From Petrotoga sp. 9PWA.NaAc.5.4 (lineage in GTDB: Bacteria; Thermotogota; Thermotogae; Petrotogales; Petrotogaceae): a stretch of 64,000 bases of DNA. A model generated the notes under the pieces. That model saw only the letters and a list, made by a program, of their open reading frames with translations, ran no database searches and was not told the DNA's origin. Position numbers and translations under genes: made by a program. The stretch is taken from NCBI RefSeq assembly GCF_002895485.1, contig NZ_AZRK01000001.1, positions 1 to 64,000 on the forward strand. Reading direction: 5' to 3'. Shown here one piece after another: positions 2,993-9,203 of this stretch. Position 1 is the first letter of the stretch; the number at the start of each line of letters is the position of its first letter.

Positions 2993-3024
2993 ACTTTTAC
3001 CTCCTTGAAAATTTTTGTATACTC

Positions 3025-3210
3025 ACTTTAGAAATTCTAAACTTCACATTTTATAAATATTTATTTCAACGTTTAACTTTTTACAAAATACCTCCCCACT
3101 TCTAATCCTTACTAATTTCTAATTTTTTTAACTTTTTCGCTACATGTAGCGAAAGAGAGGGGGGAGGGCTCCGCCCTAAAGCTGTTTAAAAGTCAAAAAC
3201 TGTTTGTTTT
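3025..3210 (-). repeat. Dispersed TIR element, copy A (left end lost)
   Basis: Read on the minus strand this copy ends with ATTTCTAAAGT (right end at 3025), 32 nt before the flagellin start. It contains the AGGGCGGAGCCCT hairpin (about 3165-3177) and the variant palindrome CGCTACATGTAGCG (3138-3151). The left terminal repeat is not recognisable. Confidence 0.85.
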
Positions 3211-3215
3211 TAAGT

Positions 3216-3499
3216 AAAATATTAAATCAAAACCAAAAAAAAGCTTCAATAATTGACTCAACTTTCAAAGTATGGAAAATCGTTTTCAATATATTATTCT
3301 TGGGTTACTTACCCGATTCCTAAAATTTTTGTTGAAAATTCTAAAATTTCATAAGCTTACTCTGAAAATAATATGAAAATTTCTGCTATGTGAGAAAATT
3401 TTGGATAATTTTTTAGTATAATTAATAATATATCTCAGAGTTTGAAAAATGTAAAAAAAGTGCCTGCTGTCGTAAAATTTCTACTTTTTATGTTAATTA
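3216..3499. other. Gene-free stretch upstream of the flavin reductase
   Basis: No open frame with a ribosome site is visible. The stretch is AT-rich and contains a short inverted repeat GGGT-TACTT-ACCC near 3304-3316. It must hold any flagellin promoter lying beyond the repeat, but no sigma-28 consensus was recognised. Confidence 0.4.
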
Positions 3500-3508
3500 T
3501 GATATAAT
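3500..3508 (+). promoter_or_regulatory. Extended -10 promoter element
   Basis: TGATATAAT (TGn-TATAAT) lies 22 nt before the ATG of the flavin reductase gene. The -35 region is weak, as is common for extended -10 promoters. Confidence 0.6.
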
Positions 3509-3529
3509 TTTAGGTTGGGAGGCGTCGAT

Positions 3530-4099
3530 ATGTCAAACAACCGTTTTAGTGAAAATATTGTTATGCCTGTGTGTTTGGTCACAGTTAAAAGTAACGGCTT
3601 TGTCAATTCTATGACAGTAGCATGGTCTACTCCTTTATCTTCTAATCCTCCTTTATTTGGTTTTGCTATACGCAAAAGTCGTTTTACATACGACATGATC
3701 ATGAAAGAAAAGGAGTTTAGTGTTTCTTTTTTATCATATGAAAAGGCAGAATTGGCTGTAAAATTTGGAAGAATATCAGGAAGAGAAGGAGATAAAGTTT
3801 CTATTTCAGGAGTTAATTTAAAAGAATCCGAATTCATAAAATCTCCTTACATAGATGAAGGATATTTTTCTATGGAATGCGTTTTAGAAAGCTATTTTGA
3901 AGTGGGAGATCATGATTTCATTGTGGGGAAGGTGATAAACACTCACAAAAAAGCGAATTTGAAAGATGCAGATCCTATTGTTTATTTGGGCAAGGATACT
4001 TTTAGTTCGATTGATTTGACGAAAATTCAACCGTTTGATACTAAAAGTATCGTTGAGGCGGTTAGACAAGCTTTGAATAGAGGTGGAAAAGATGATTAA
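3530..4099 (+). CDS. Flavin reductase-like (flavoredoxin family) protein, 189 aa
   Basis: Member of the flavin reductase-like domain family, which binds FMN and passes electrons from NAD(P)H or ferredoxin-type donors to acceptors in the cytoplasm. Visible family features are the N-terminal MPVCLVTVKSNGFVNSMTVA segment, the WSTPLSSNPPLFGFAIR flavin-contact stretch and the later GDHDFIVGKV strand. The frame is open from TTG 3515, but that codon overlaps the GGGAGG ribosome site (3517-3522), so ATG 3530 with 7-nt spacing is the start. It overlaps the next gene by 8 bp. The natural acceptor cannot be told from sequence. Confidence 0.85.
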   Translation: MSNNRFSENIVMPVCLVTVKSNGFVNSMTVAWSTPLSSNPPLFGFAIRKSRFTYDMIMKEKEFSVSFLSYEKAELAVKFGRISGREGDKVSISGVNLKESEFIKSPYIDEGYFSMECVLESYFEVGDHDFIVGKVINTHKKANLKDADPIVYLGKDTFSSIDLTKIQPFDTKSIVEAVRQALNRGGKDD

Positions 4100-4700
4100 A
4101 AAACAAAGTTCGGATTCTGTCATTTTGGATATAATAGAACCTTCTATCGCTTTCCCTCAAATAAGATTAGAAAAAGGTCAAACATTAGGAATTTACACAG
4201 AAAATCCGATAGTTTTAACTTCTAACTTTTTTAGGTTGATATCAGAACCAGAAAAATATGCGAAAAAGGTTATGGTTAATGGAATAATAGCCAATGGAAC
4301 AAATTGGGTAGGAAGGGTTTTTACGCATATTGTAGTACCTGGAATTTGGGAAGATAGCATTTGTAATATACTGAAGAATAAACCCAAACGTAGGCATTTA
4401 ATATTTATAGGTGCAAATAGTAACGAAATCAGATACGAAGAACTTGCAAACATTTCAAGATTCGTAACTGATTACAAAAAGGATGGAAGCATTTTTGTAA
4501 TTACTGATTCTAAAGAATTGTTGGAAGCTACTGTTGAAAAGGTCATAGATGAAAAAGGGCTTGAATTAACTATGAAACAAGGGGACTTTTTTGAAAGGTT
4601 ATCCGATAAAACAGAAGTTTCGGAATTAAGCAACATTATTTCAAATATAGAAGACTTGAGGTATAAAAAATGGAAACTTGCAGATAATTCTCAAAAATAA
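4092..4700 (+). CDS. ABC-ATPase-like protein lacking the P-loop, 203 aa
   Basis: Not confidently assigned. The order of segments resembles a short ABC ATPase: LEKGQTLGIYTEN at residues 26-38 sits where LxxGEIxGIxGxNGxGK would be, FFRLIS follows like TLFRLIS, and VITDSKELLEATVEKVIDEK near the C-terminus resembles the H-loop and post-H-loop region. However, the Walker A lysine motif, an LSGGQ signature and a Walker B aspartate pair are absent, so ATP hydrolysis is unlikely. ATG 4092 is preferred over GTG 4083, which lies in the AGAGGTGG ribosome site. The gene overlaps the flavin reductase by 8 bp and precedes a membrane protein gene by 30 bp, reminiscent of an ATPase-permease pair. Confidence 0.6.
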   Translation: MIKKQSSDSVILDIIEPSIAFPQIRLEKGQTLGIYTENPIVLTSNFFRLISEPEKYAKKVMVNGIIANGTNWVGRVFTHIVVPGIWEDSICNILKNKPKRRHLIFIGANSNEIRYEELANISRFVTDYKKDGSIFVITDSKELLEATVEKVIDEKGLELTMKQGDFFERLSDKTEVSELSNIISNIEDLRYKKWKLADNSQK

Positions 4701-4730
4701 TTTCGAGAGATTTTTAAGGCGGGGCTAAGG

Positions 4731-5501
4731 GTGACTAAAAATACAAAAAGATTTTTGTTTTCTTCAATAGTCTTTATTTTAATTCTTTGGGGTATGCAAA
4801 GAATGAGTTTTTATCTTTTAAAAATAGAACCTTTTTATTTTTTAAGCAATATACACATTGAAAACAAAAGATTAAAGCAAACTGATATATTTCCAGAAAA
4901 TGCTCTTGCGGTTATAAAGCCTCAGAAAGATAAAATTGAAGTTTACTTATCAAAAGAATTAGAAGATTTAGATATTATACAAAACGATCTTTATGCAGTA
5001 GGTTATGAATTATCAAAGATGATGGGAAATTATGTTCCACTGAGTTTTTTTATTACAGATTATTTAAGAATGCCTAAATCATATTATTTCGTAAGAAATA
5101 TTTTTTATGTAATATATTTTATATGGTTTATTCTATTAGGTTTAATATATAAACCATTTTCTTTTAATAAATTACTTTTATTAAAGTTTGGATATAACAA
5201 AGAAGTAGTTGTAAATATGGCAATATTTTTCTTATTTTTCTTTTCAATTTTTCTTATTTTTTATTTTCACACATATAATTTTGAAAGTTTTTTTAGTTTC
5301 GGGATACTAACTTTTAGTGGAATAATTTTAACAAACACCTTTAGGAATAAATTTCTAAAGCTTTTAATTATAGTTTTATTAGGTATTAGCTTTTTTTCCA
5401 ATATTATTTTAAGTTATTCAGCTATAATATTATTAATTTCTATTATTATATGGGGACTTTTCGGTTGGAAGAATTGGATTAATCCATTCATCCAAAAATA
5501 A
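4731..5501 (+). CDS. Polytopic membrane protein, 256 aa, unknown function
   Basis: Not recognised. One membrane segment lies near residues 8-28. It is followed by a mostly soluble stretch of about 90 residues (probably external) and then four to five very hydrophobic, Phe/Ile-rich segments from about residue 122 to the C-terminus (WGLFGWKNW near the end). GTG start behind a G-rich site. It lies 30 bp after the P-loop-less ABC-like gene, so the two may form one complex, perhaps a decayed or repurposed transporter. That is inference from order only. Confidence 0.6.
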   Translation: MTKNTKRFLFSSIVFILILWGMQRMSFYLLKIEPFYFLSNIHIENKRLKQTDIFPENALAVIKPQKDKIEVYLSKELEDLDIIQNDLYAVGYELSKMMGNYVPLSFFITDYLRMPKSYYFVRNIFYVIYFIWFILLGLIYKPFSFNKLLLLKFGYNKEVVVNMAIFFLFFFSIFLIFYFHTYNFESFFSFGILTFSGIILTNTFRNKFLKLLIIVLLGISFFSNIILSYSAIILLISIIIWGLFGWKNWINPFIQK

Positions 5502-5559
5502 AATATACTTATACTGGGTTCAGATCAGAACTCTCAATCAGTCTTAGGAGGTATTTTTT

Positions 5560-6591
5560 GTGAACTATAATTTGAATAAAGAGGAAATACTTTTAGCTCT
5601 AAGAGAAGAACTAAGTGATATTAACGATATTCAAAACCTTCAAAATCTAAAATCTAAGTACCTCGGCAAAAATGGATTAACTAAAAGTTTGATGAAAAAC
5701 TTGAAAAATCTTGATGATCAAGCTAAAAGAGAGTATGGTAAGGTCATTAACGAGTTAAAAAACGAAATTGAAGATATCTTTGAGAATAAATTAGCAGAAT
5801 TGAAAAAAGCTGAATTAGAAGAAAAAGAGAAAGAAAATTGGGTCGATGTTACAATTCCAGGAGCAATTAGAAAAATTGGAAAAGAAAGTTTTATCACAAA
5901 AACAATTAGGGAGATAGAAGAAATTTTCATAGGTATGGGCTTTTCGATAGCGGAAGGACCTGAAATAGAAGATGCATGGTATAACTTTGACGCTCTCAAT
6001 ACTCCTAAATGGCATCCTGCAAGAGAAATGCAGGATACTTTTTATATAACAACTGACCAACAAAAGCTTCTACGTACCCATACTTCTCCCGTCCAAATAA
6101 GAACCATGCTAAAAAGCACACCCCCTTTAGCAATAATTTCACCGGGAAGGGTATATAGAAAAGATGAATTAGATGCCACTCATTCTCCTGTTTTTCATCA
6201 AGTGGAAGGTTTGTATGTAGATAAAACCGTTTCTGTTTCACATTTAAAGATGTATCTTGAAACAATGGCAAAAAAACTTTTTGGTAACAAAGTATCAATA
6301 CTTTTAAGGCCGAGTTATTTTCCTTTTACAGAACCAAGTTTTGAAGTTGACATAAGTTGTATCTTTTGTGGAGGTAAAGGCTGTAACATATGTAAAAATT
6401 CTGGATGGATAGAGATATTAGGGGCAGGATTAGTTCATCCCAATGTATTAAAAAGTGTAAACTATGATCCTGAAATATGGCAAGGTTTTGCCTTTGGAAT
6501 GGGAGTTGAAAGGGTTGCGTTGTTAAAATACAATGTTCCAGAAATGAGGGAGTTCTATAAAAATGATGTAAGGTTTATAGAAAGTTGGTAA
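5560..6591 (+). CDS. pheS: Phenylalanyl-tRNA synthetase alpha subunit, 343 aa
   Basis: Catalytic subunit of the alpha2-beta2 enzyme that charges tRNA-Phe in the cytoplasm. The N-terminal coiled-coil (about residues 1-100, with the LKSKYLGKNGLTK segment) contacts tRNA. The class II core follows with motif 2 (RTHTSPVQIRTM, then GRVYRKDELDATHSPVFHQVEG) and motif 3 (GFAFGMGVERVALLKYNV). Length is normal. GTG start with AGGAGGT at 5546-5552. A short sequence upstream (about 5513-5541) resembles a fragment of the TIR element family. pheT follows after about 250 bp. Confidence 0.97.
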   Translation: MNYNLNKEEILLALREELSDINDIQNLQNLKSKYLGKNGLTKSLMKNLKNLDDQAKREYGKVINELKNEIEDIFENKLAELKKAELEEKEKENWVDVTIPGAIRKIGKESFITKTIREIEEIFIGMGFSIAEGPEIEDAWYNFDALNTPKWHPAREMQDTFYITTDQQKLLRTHTSPVQIRTMLKSTPPLAIISPGRVYRKDELDATHSPVFHQVEGLYVDKTVSVSHLKMYLETMAKKLFGNKVSILLRPSYFPFTEPSFEVDISCIFCGGKGCNICKNSGWIEILGAGLVHPNVLKSVNYDPEIWQGFAFGMGVERVALLKYNVPEMREFYKNDVRFIESW

Positions 6592-6612
6592 TAAGAGGAA
6601 TAATATACAGAT

Positions 6613-6806
6613 AAACTTTTTAGAAAAGAAAGGTTTTGTTAAAATAAGTTTTTGAATTTAAAGTGGACTCAGAAAGAAGTTAATCCCGTTCTTTCAGGAG
6701 AATTATCAACTAAGTTAAACAAATAGATAGTTGATAAAAATTAACACAGTGAAGATACTTTTGAAAAAAATAAAACTAAAATATTGATAAAAACTAATTT
6801 TTAAAG
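6613..6806 (+). repeat. Degenerate TIR element copy upstream of pheT
   Basis: The pheS-pheT gap keeps the outline of the family: a left end like AACTTTTTAGAAA, the conserved TAAGTTTTTGAATTTAAAGTGG block near 6645-6667, the AAATATTGATAAAA box and a right end like ATTTTTAAAGT, 33 nt before the pheT start. The two GC-rich hairpins have decayed. Confidence 0.6.
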
Positions 6807-6839
6807 TAAATATAGGCTAATAAATCACAGGAGGTAAGA

Positions 6840-9203
6840 ATGAAGGTATCCATTGAATGGTTAACAGATTACATAAATATCACAAAAAATACAGAGGAAT
6901 TAATTAATGAGTTAAAACTTCATACTACCGATGTTGAAAGCTACTCTAAAGTAGGAAAAAATCTTTCAAATGTTGTTGTTGGTAAAATAAAAGATGTAAA
7001 ACCTCATAAAAATTCTGATAATTTAGTTGTTTGCGAAATTGACGTAGGTAATTCAATAAAAAAGATTGTTACAGGTGATCTTACAGTTAAAGCAGAAGAA
7101 AAAGTTCCTGTTGCTTTACCTGGTGCAATTTTAGTGAACAACGTTAAAATAGAAACTAGAGATTTTAAAGGAATTGTTTCTGAAGGTATGATGTGTTCTT
7201 TGAAAGAACTAGGAATATCTGAAGACGCTGATAAGATTTACAGAATAATCGATGATGTTGAAGCAGGAGTGGACTTTTTAAAATACTTTAACTTAGCAGA
7301 TGAAATTTTAGAAATCGATATACTCCCCAATAGGCCTGATTTGCTTTCTTATTTAGGCATAGCTAAGGAACTAGAAGCTATAGGATGTGGAGAAAATTTT
7401 ACACTCTTTGATTATACTCAAATACAAAAAGGTGAAGGGTTTCCAGTTACGATTGAATATGATAAATGTAAAAGATATATGGCAACTGTTATGAAAAATA
7501 TAAAAGTTGGCCCTTCTCCATTGTGGCTTGTAAAAAGGTTAGGCAGAGCTGGAATAAGGAGTATTAACAATATCGTTGATATAACAAATTATGTTATGCT
7601 TGAAACAGGGCATCCAATTCACGCATTCGATTTAGACCTCATAGGCAACCAAATAGTTGTTAGAAAAGCAAATAATGGTGAAAAAGTCTTACTTTTGGAT
7701 GAAAAAGAATATACTTTGCGCGGAGATGAGACTCTCATCACAGATGGTAGAAACATAATAGCCCTTGGAGGAATAATGGGCGGAGAATTAAGTGGAATAA
7801 ATGAACATACAACGTCAGTTTTGTTAGAAGTAGCTTATTTTGATCCTGTAAACATTAGAAAATCTTCAAGTTACCATAAAATAAGCTCTGATTCTTCTTA
7901 TAGATTTGAACGTGGTGTTGACCCAAACGATTCTGAAATCGTCATGGGAAGGTTAATAAAACTCATAACTGAATTAGCAACGGGAAAAGTAGATGGTTTT
8001 ACAACGGATGTATATCCAAATACTATTGAAAAAAAGCGTATTTTATTGAGAAAGAATTATTTGAATAGCAGATTAGGCAAAGTAATTGAAAAATCTGATG
8101 TGGAAAAAATTTTTAACAAATTAGACTTTACTTTTGTAAACCAAAATGAAAATTGGTTAGTATCAATTCCTACGAAAAGGCCGGATATCATCGACGAAAT
8201 AGATATTGTTGAGGAAGTTGGAAGAGTTTATGGATATTCAAAGATTCCTTCATATTTTCCTTCTATATCAGGTTTAACAGGAACTAAAGGAGAATTTGTT
8301 GCTTTTAAAGATAGAGTTACAGATATAATGTTAGCAAATGGTTTTCATGAAGCTAAAACTTTTCCTTTGAACAATATAAAACGTATGTGGATGGAAGATG
8401 ATGTAGAATTAAAAGTAGTGAACCCATTATCATCCGAATATGAATACATTACTCCTAAGTTAGTATATGGGCTGTTGGAAGCAACTTCTTTTAACTACAG
8501 AAATCAAAACAGAGATATAAAATTATTTGAAATAGACAAGGTTTTTTTAAAAGACGACAGTAGTGAAACAGGAGCAAAAGAGTTCACAAATTTAGCATTT
8601 ATTGCAACAGGCAGGGAAAACGAATATGACTTTACCGACAAGCGTGAAATTTCGTTCTACACTTTAAAAGGTAACTTAGAGAATGTTTTTAAGGAATGGA
8701 GTTTGAATGTAGATTTTCTTAGATCTTCTCAAATAGGTTTGATGAAGTCTCAAAGTGCTGAGTTGTTTTTAAATGATCTAAAAATTGGTTTTTTAGGATT
8801 GTTGGATCCTCAGACTGCTGATAGTTTTTATGAAATAAAGTCCCCAGTTTATATATGTGAGATAAACCTCGATACCTTGTTTGCAAATCGAAAAGATGTT
8901 AGCAAAAAGATTAGAAATTTTGATTTCCCCGCAATAAAGAGGGAGTATGCTTTTGTTGTACCTATATCAGTGGAATTCAAAGAAATTCAAAAAGTTATAG
9001 AAGATGGTAGCAATATAATCGAAGAATTTCAAATATTCGATGTTTATAAAGGTAAAAATTTACCAAAAGACAAAATAAGTATAACTGTAAGTATCGTGTA
9101 CAGATCTGAGCATAAAACGTTAAAAGATGAGGAAGTTAACGAAGTTGAAAAAAATATTCTCAACAAATTGCAAAAACTAAATGTAAAACTTAGAGAAAGA
9201 TAA
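6840..9203 (+). CDS. pheT: Phenylalanyl-tRNA synthetase beta subunit, 787 aa
   Basis: Partner of PheS, providing tRNA recognition and editing. Domains in order: N-terminal KVSIEWLTDYI, EMAP-type tRNA-binding domain (about 40-150, with VVGKIKDVKPHKNSD), B3/B4 editing domain (about 205-390, containing GIRSINNIVDITNYVM and RFERGVDPN), B5 domain, catalytic-like core with RNQNRDIKLFEIDKVF, and C-terminal anticodon-binding FDX-ACB domain ending YRSEHKTLKDEEVNEV. Length is normal for bacteria. ATG preceded by AGGAGG. It is separated from pheS by a relic element that could carry its own promoter. Confidence 0.97.
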   Translation: MKVSIEWLTDYINITKNTEELINELKLHTTDVESYSKVGKNLSNVVVGKIKDVKPHKNSDNLVVCEIDVGNSIKKIVTGDLTVKAEEKVPVALPGAILVNNVKIETRDFKGIVSEGMMCSLKELGISEDADKIYRIIDDVEAGVDFLKYFNLADEILEIDILPNRPDLLSYLGIAKELEAIGCGENFTLFDYTQIQKGEGFPVTIEYDKCKRYMATVMKNIKVGPSPLWLVKRLGRAGIRSINNIVDITNYVMLETGHPIHAFDLDLIGNQIVVRKANNGEKVLLLDEKEYTLRGDETLITDGRNIIALGGIMGGELSGINEHTTSVLLEVAYFDPVNIRKSSSYHKISSDSSYRFERGVDPNDSEIVMGRLIKLITELATGKVDGFTTDVYPNTIEKKRILLRKNYLNSRLGKVIEKSDVEKIFNKLDFTFVNQNENWLVSIPTKRPDIIDEIDIVEEVGRVYGYSKIPSYFPSISGLTGTKGEFVAFKDRVTDIMLANGFHEAKTFPLNNIKRMWMEDDVELKVVNPLSSEYEYITPKLVYGLLEATSFNYRNQNRDIKLFEIDKVFLKDDSSETGAKEFTNLAFIATGRENEYDFTDKREISFYTLKGNLENVFKEWSLNVDFLRSSQIGLMKSQSAELFLNDLKIGFLGLLDPQTADSFYEIKSPVYICEINLDTLFANRKDVSKKIRNFDFPAIKREYAFVVPISVEFKEIQKVIEDGSNIIEEFQIFDVYKGKNLPKDKISITVSIVYRSEHKTLKDEEVNEVEKNILNKLQKLNVKLRER

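Follow-up and report, generated by a model that had tools for sequence, protein, structure and literature searches.

A motif-less probable relative of ABC ATPase domains beside pheS in Petrotogaceae, possibly a scaffold docked through a lysine tail that has twice outlived its membrane partner

What can an ABC ATPase-like protein do if it has no residues for handling nucleotide and is encoded next to a membrane protein? This question is raised by two adjoining genes in a stretch of 64,000 nucleotides from Petrotoga sp. 9PWA.NaAc.5.4 (contig NZ_AZRK01000001.1, positions 1 to 64,000), called the window below. The first gene, X (4092..4700, +; delimited by its open reading frame, orthologue alignment, profiles and motif check), encodes a pseudo-ATPase of 202 aa resembling an ABC ATPase domain. 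The second, TM (4731..5501, +; open reading frame, profile search and hydropathy), encodes a membrane protein of 256 aa. The original prediction gave the coordinates and the TENPIVLTS stretch of X correctly, its 203 aa including the stop codon, and was also right that a polytopic protein follows. It suggested that the pair could be a non-hydrolysing regulatory or structural complex derived from an ABC exporter. The order of genes in the window is a flavin reductase-like gene (PF01613; 3515..4099, +), which overlaps the start of X, then X, TM, pheS (5560..6591, +) and pheT, and an Rfam scan of window positions 3000-7000 gave no family at gathering score. Two features of the surroundings are of note. 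The spacer between pheS and pheT (6592-6839) is 248 bp long, while it takes 418 bp in locus L021 and at most 63 bp in the others looked at. The flagellin encoded at 362-2992 on the minus strand (876 aa) carries a very large repeat-like insertion in its middle; flagellin-like open reading frames near the corresponding locus in L036 and L037 have 391 and 395 aa.

X was found in 20 of the 61 relatives searched, all of them from the window's family (Petrotogaceae), where 20 of 21 members carry it with one match each. The only member without a match is a 520-contig assembly (G011) whose pheS contig begins within pheS, so that a contig break accounts for the absence. A profile built from the 20 sequences matched 28 of the 103 genomes searched in the phylum, the 20 X-bearing ones at E < 1e-68 and the other eight only between 8e-6 and 5.6e-4. 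Extra weak matches were also obtained in two X-bearing genomes (G005 and G008). Three of the eight out-of-family matches (L061, L062 and L064), read in frame, proved to be ABC-F-type ATPases, and the main open reading frames of the remaining five pass the ABC-domain profile. Outside the family, only true ABC ATPases match X among the 103 genomes of the phylum, and they do so weakly. A scan of genome contigs registered one locus, in Thermotogota MAG JAKOZG010000004.1; since it was made with a single peptide pattern, it says little on the absence of X outside the phylum. Viral contigs gave no match.

In all 20 genomes X lies on the same strand as pheS and 5' of it, and the flavin reductase-like gene is its 5' neighbour in some genera, not in all. 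No open reading frame longer than 150 aa besides TM separates X from pheS in 17 of the 20, and no partner ATPase was seen between these two genes. Some local peculiarities, named by eye, are worth mentioning. In both loci of genus g4 (L021 7152-8879 and L022 7171-8898, strand turned to X) the place of TM is taken by a chemoreceptor-like gene of opposite orientation, and an Rpn-type nuclease-like gene stands between TM and pheS in a single g7 genome (L037 8619-9668, strand turned to X). In L033 (7744-11192, genome G020, strand turned to X) each of the genes pheS and pheT is split in two frames, perhaps by a sequencing error. We also asked whether an ancestral ABC operon can be traced next to pheS in other families. 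Among 18 pheS-side stretches, 17 from other families (L154 and L161 being short) and one from G011, which carries no upstream sequence, the profiles of X, TM and ABC domains found nothing in open reading frames of at least 100 aa, and the idea was abandoned. A genome of another family has a 264-aa open reading frame about 4 kb 5' of pheS (L156 14-808, strand turned to pheS) that by eye looks like an ABC-2-type permease.

The values of dN/dS for X fell within 0.08-0.20 in 10 of 11 pairs, those where the ratio was estimable, and presence in 20 of 21 family genomes together with these values qualifies X as a real gene. For TM the ratio was 0.19-0.29 (four pairs with usable dS). Loss of every ATPase motif and disappearance of TM from some genera could be taken to mean that both genes are functionless remains of a decaying ABC transporter, but the frame of X is open in 20/20 genomes and both genes show the low ratios given above. 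We disfavour this explanation and find it hardly credible.

The lack of Walker A, signature and Walker B motifs, noticed in the window's copy at the outset, was confirmed for the whole set of orthologues and extends to the H-loop histidine. General ABC ATPase patterns were used for Walker A (G-x4-GK[ST]), the signature (LSGGQ-like), Walker B with its acidic residues (hhhhD[EQ]) and the H-loop; in a set of 61 true ABC domains they match 59, 44, 56 and 28, respectively, so that the last of them is insensitive. None of the four was found in any of the 20 X orthologues. The segment of X corresponding in position to the Walker A loop reads TENPIVLTS (codons 36-44; 4197..4223, +; ORF translation and motif check) inside LGIYTENPIVLTSNFFRLI, where an ABC ATPase is expected to show G-x4-GK[ST]. 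FTHIVVP (codons 77-83; 4320..4340, +) probably corresponds to the strand leading into the Q-loop position and contains no Gln, while its H79 is invariant in 20/20 orthologues. The Walker B strand position was assigned, by the EF3 alignment and motif check, to LIFIGA (codons 103-108; 4398..4415, +), and this or a similar segment without Asp-Glu stands there throughout. The H-loop position falls on ITDS (codons 137-140; 4500..4511, +; orthologue and EF3 alignments, motif check) with Asp, or Asn in some relatives, and with His in 0/20; S140 is invariant in all 20. The distance from the P-loop to the H-loop equivalent is 103 residues in X; among the 61 ABC domains it was measurable in 29, with a median of 161 (138-177). 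Thus, about 58 residues are missing at the place expected for the signature-bearing helical subdomain, and the sequence preceding LIFIGA is too short to give it room. Judged by length only, this subdomain seems to have been deleted.

Whether a protein so altered has anything to do with ABC ATPases was addressed by profile comparison. Aligned by hhalign with a set of 61 ABC domains chosen independently of X, the profile of the 20 X sequences scored 33.7 (P 1.8e-4) over 146 columns, with residues 12-159 aligned on 6-216, and 0/300 column shuffles reached it (maximum 21.7). An enlarged set of 77 domains, including those from ten loci that X itself had found, gave 39.4 (P 2e-5; 0/200 shuffles, maximum 28.5; 14.0 with the reversed profile). 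With PF00005 domains X shares this end-to-end similarity and the succession of a strand, the P-loop place, a helix, the Walker B strand and the H-loop strand with its helix, but these domains have Walker A, the Q-loop Gln, the signature, the Walker B acid, the H-loop His and about 58 more residues. Two other P-loop profiles scored at noise level, 18.3 (AAA+, 30 sequences) and 13.9 (thymidylate kinase, 19 sequences), and 17 non-ABC families of neighbouring genes gave at most 20.2. Single ABC proteins (n=57) exceeded other open reading frames (n=439) with a median of 15.9 versus 13.4 and a rank-test p of 5.5e-9, which ignores relatedness among the sequences. A six-sequence FetA-like ABC ATPase family from the neighbourhood of X, named by eye, scored 12.8, at noise level; hence the relation shows up when the ABC profile is broad but may be missed with a narrow one. 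In the middle of X the alignment path is uncertain: RRHLIFIGA is put opposite the signature helix by hhalign and on Walker B by HMMER.

Searches of curated collections were less telling. Nine of ten PDB sequences found with the X profile at E<=10 are of ABC-F or EF3 type (best E 0.025) and the tenth is MukF; no match fell below 0.001. In the EF3 alignment LIVLDEPTNYLD and IITHS stand opposite the Walker B and H-loop places of X. None of the 20 X members matched Pfam PF00005 (ABC_tran) even at E 10, and a Pfam and NCBIfam scan of X and TM revealed nothing relevant. The weak NCBIfam matches to TrmB and Ygs (E 0.024-0.037) were taken as chance, as were the inconsistent ones registered in member-by-member Pfam scans of X and TM, to FAD_binding_1 (4/20, best E 0.0072) and DUF5416 (3/20, best E 0.023). 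The AlphaFold comparison suggested initially for X was of limited help. The AF2 model, built from two sequences, has a pLDDT of 36; its order of strands and helices is compatible with an ABC core, while Foldseek with this low-confidence model put AAA+ clamp loaders on top of the best 50 of 779 matches, and BceA, Wzt and HlyB appeared from rank 24.

All this leaves some place for the assumption that X belongs to another alpha/beta family and resembles ABC domains in strand-helix order by chance, as the poor model with its AAA+ neighbours, the noise-level score of the FetA-like family and the lack of Pfam or PDB matches at conventional cut-offs would permit. Chance likeness is improbable, however, given a colinear match that no shuffle in 300 could equal and its specificity for ABC domains against two other P-loop families and 17 non-ABC families from the vicinity. 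Based on the profile comparisons, X probably descends from an ABC ATPase domain. The ABC kinship proposed originally is thus upheld by the end-to-end profile match, though not at the level of PF00005.

The other half of the original proposal, an exporter origin, was not supported. Separate ABC classes scored 31.1 and 27.3 (ABC-F), 30.5 (RbsA-like), 30.2 (single importers), 25.0 (ABC-2 exporters) and 21.9 (fused exporters), each above all 60 of its own shuffles, with small gaps between the scores and unequal class sizes (6 to 35); the two exporter-type profiles are the lowest of the six. An ATP-driven exporter with X as its motor is very unlikely. ABC-F and EF3-type proteins provide the best PDB sequence matches, which cover the stretch from Walker B to the C-terminus. 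However, X is single and motif-less, and the lead of ABC-F over the next classes (31.1 versus 30.5 and 30.2) does not exceed noise, so that an ABC-F origin was not accepted either. ABC-F proteins and EF3 are tandem, active ATPases.

The membrane partner is distributed more narrowly than X. Of the 103 genomes searched in the phylum only 12 gave strong TM matches, and all of these belong to the family. Twelve of the 20 genomes with X thus carry TM, in each case adjoining X, and the gap between the two genes ranges from -29 to +30 bp. The eight genomes without it are six of g3 and two of g4, and the TM profile found no strong copy elsewhere in them; one (G008) gave a match at E 0.006 over 48 residues with stops. 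The pairing, whose conservation across Thermotogota had been proposed as a check, holds as an operon-like unit in 12/20 X-bearing genomes; it was seen within one family only and is not obligatory, since 8/20 keep X without TM. A partial search of the literature returned no description of such a pair.

A low-confidence AF2 model from one sequence and hydropathy suggest that the first helix of TM is followed by a loop of about 90 residues and then by four or five more helices. Among the 12 orthologues exactly six hydropathy peaks were counted in six and five in five, while the window's copy has four at that cut-off. The loop domain, approximately residues 31-118 (4821..5084, +), would be extracytoplasmic. 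Such a layout, one helix followed by a loop domain and several helices, broadly recalls ABC-2 permeases (PF12698, PF01061), and among non-self membrane clusters TM scored best with the main ABC-2 permease cluster (score 24.4, P 0.021, 73 columns; singletons were excluded from the comparison). One could then imagine that TM is the permease of a real ABC-2-type exporter with X as its dummy or regulatory NBD and an active NBD encoded elsewhere. But 24.4 barely exceeds the 22.1 obtained with an MFS-looking cluster, a second small permease cluster gave 13.6, a mixed set of 31 permeases aligned elsewhere over 47 columns, and no TM member matched a Pfam permease family. With P near the control level and no significant sequence relation found, assignment of TM to ABC-2 permeases was not supported. 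The best distant match of TM (G102, E 7e-5) is no permease candidate, since its open reading frame appears to be PelD-like, presumably with a PelG-like neighbour. In ABC NBDs the helical subdomain is the part that touches permeases; X seems to have none, and no partner ATPase was seen between it and pheS. Altogether a dummy domain of an exporter is quite improbable.

If the pair is not a transporter, does X depend on TM at all? Genomes with and without TM bear on this question. Two lysines in the C-terminal tail of X (codons 157-202; 4560..4697, +), Lys192-Lys193 (4665..4670, +; aligned across the 20 X-bearing genomes), have Lys-Lys counterparts in 12/12 genomes with TM and in 0/8 without it. 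Six of these eight, all from g3, have lost the whole tail and two carry replacements. When the presence of TM was mapped on a PheS-PheT tree covering 18 of the 20 genomes, two changes were required, and a single change was sufficient in 0% of 200 bootstrap trees; strongly supported branches alone force one change, the branch joining the window with g4 having values of 89/87. The correlation between Lys-Lys and TM thus amounts to about two independent evolutionary events. A higher conservation of the tail relative to the core where TM is present did not hold overall, being observed only in 6 of 21 g7 pairs.

X is retained regardless of TM. In TM-less g3 (five pairs among five of six genomes) dN/dS of X was 0.10-0.16 versus 0.10-0.25 for PheT, and in the single g4 pair, also TM-less, both gave 0.08 with dS near saturation. 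In two pairs from g7, where TM is present, X was looser than PheT (0.15-0.20 and 0.08-0.11). Since X remains under selection in genera lacking TM, its core would have a job that is independent of the membrane protein. These data are in line with X acting without TM in the cytosol, where it would have a conserved partner, perhaps one related to PheRS or translation, and with TM as an operon passenger that has its own function in the membrane; location 5' of pheS in 20/20 and the ABC-F and EF3 matches in PDB could point in the same direction. This is a serious but less likely alternative, because TM, in all 12 genomes that have it, adjoins X with ends overlapping or nearly touching, the Lys-Lys of the X tail tracks TM, ABC-F is not clearly preferred, and linkage to pheST is uninformative on contact and no proof of a translation-related partner.

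With a slightly better than even chance, X is an ABC-derived adaptor that works independently of ATP, being attached to TM by its tail while its core serves a different purpose. It may be an ABC ATPase domain that has lost its nucleotide-handling parts and apparently the entire helical subdomain, would still fold as an ABC alpha/beta core and would lack the mode of ATP binding typical of ABC proteins. In genomes with TM, the Lys-Lys tail may attach X to the cytosolic side of TM or to the adjacent lipid, and X and TM would form a passive membrane complex, while the core performs a second, TM-independent job. In this sense we infer that the regulatory or structural complex proposed originally may exist. 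A fuller scenario, in which a pseudo-ATPase shed its subdomain, became a scaffold docked through Lys-Lys and outlived its membrane partner twice as a free-standing adaptor, is offered as a tentative possibility.

Weakening of the sites in ABC domains is a familiar phenomenon; usually such domains keep the fold and bind ATP beside an active partner. In degenerate-site ABC exporters, for instance, the fold, Walker A and ATP binding are kept, and the altered domain is paired with an active one. X differs from these exporters in that it has lost every motif and, seemingly, the helical subdomain. Loss of catalytic residues from ABC domains is what such exporters (PMC7756269) have in common with X. 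If the proposed history is true, with all motifs and the subdomain gone and selection nevertheless strong, in the genera without TM about equal to that on PheT, an ABC core can be a plain protein scaffold. In Petrotogaceae the natural absence of TM together with a matching change in the tail of X would make the docking idea readily testable.
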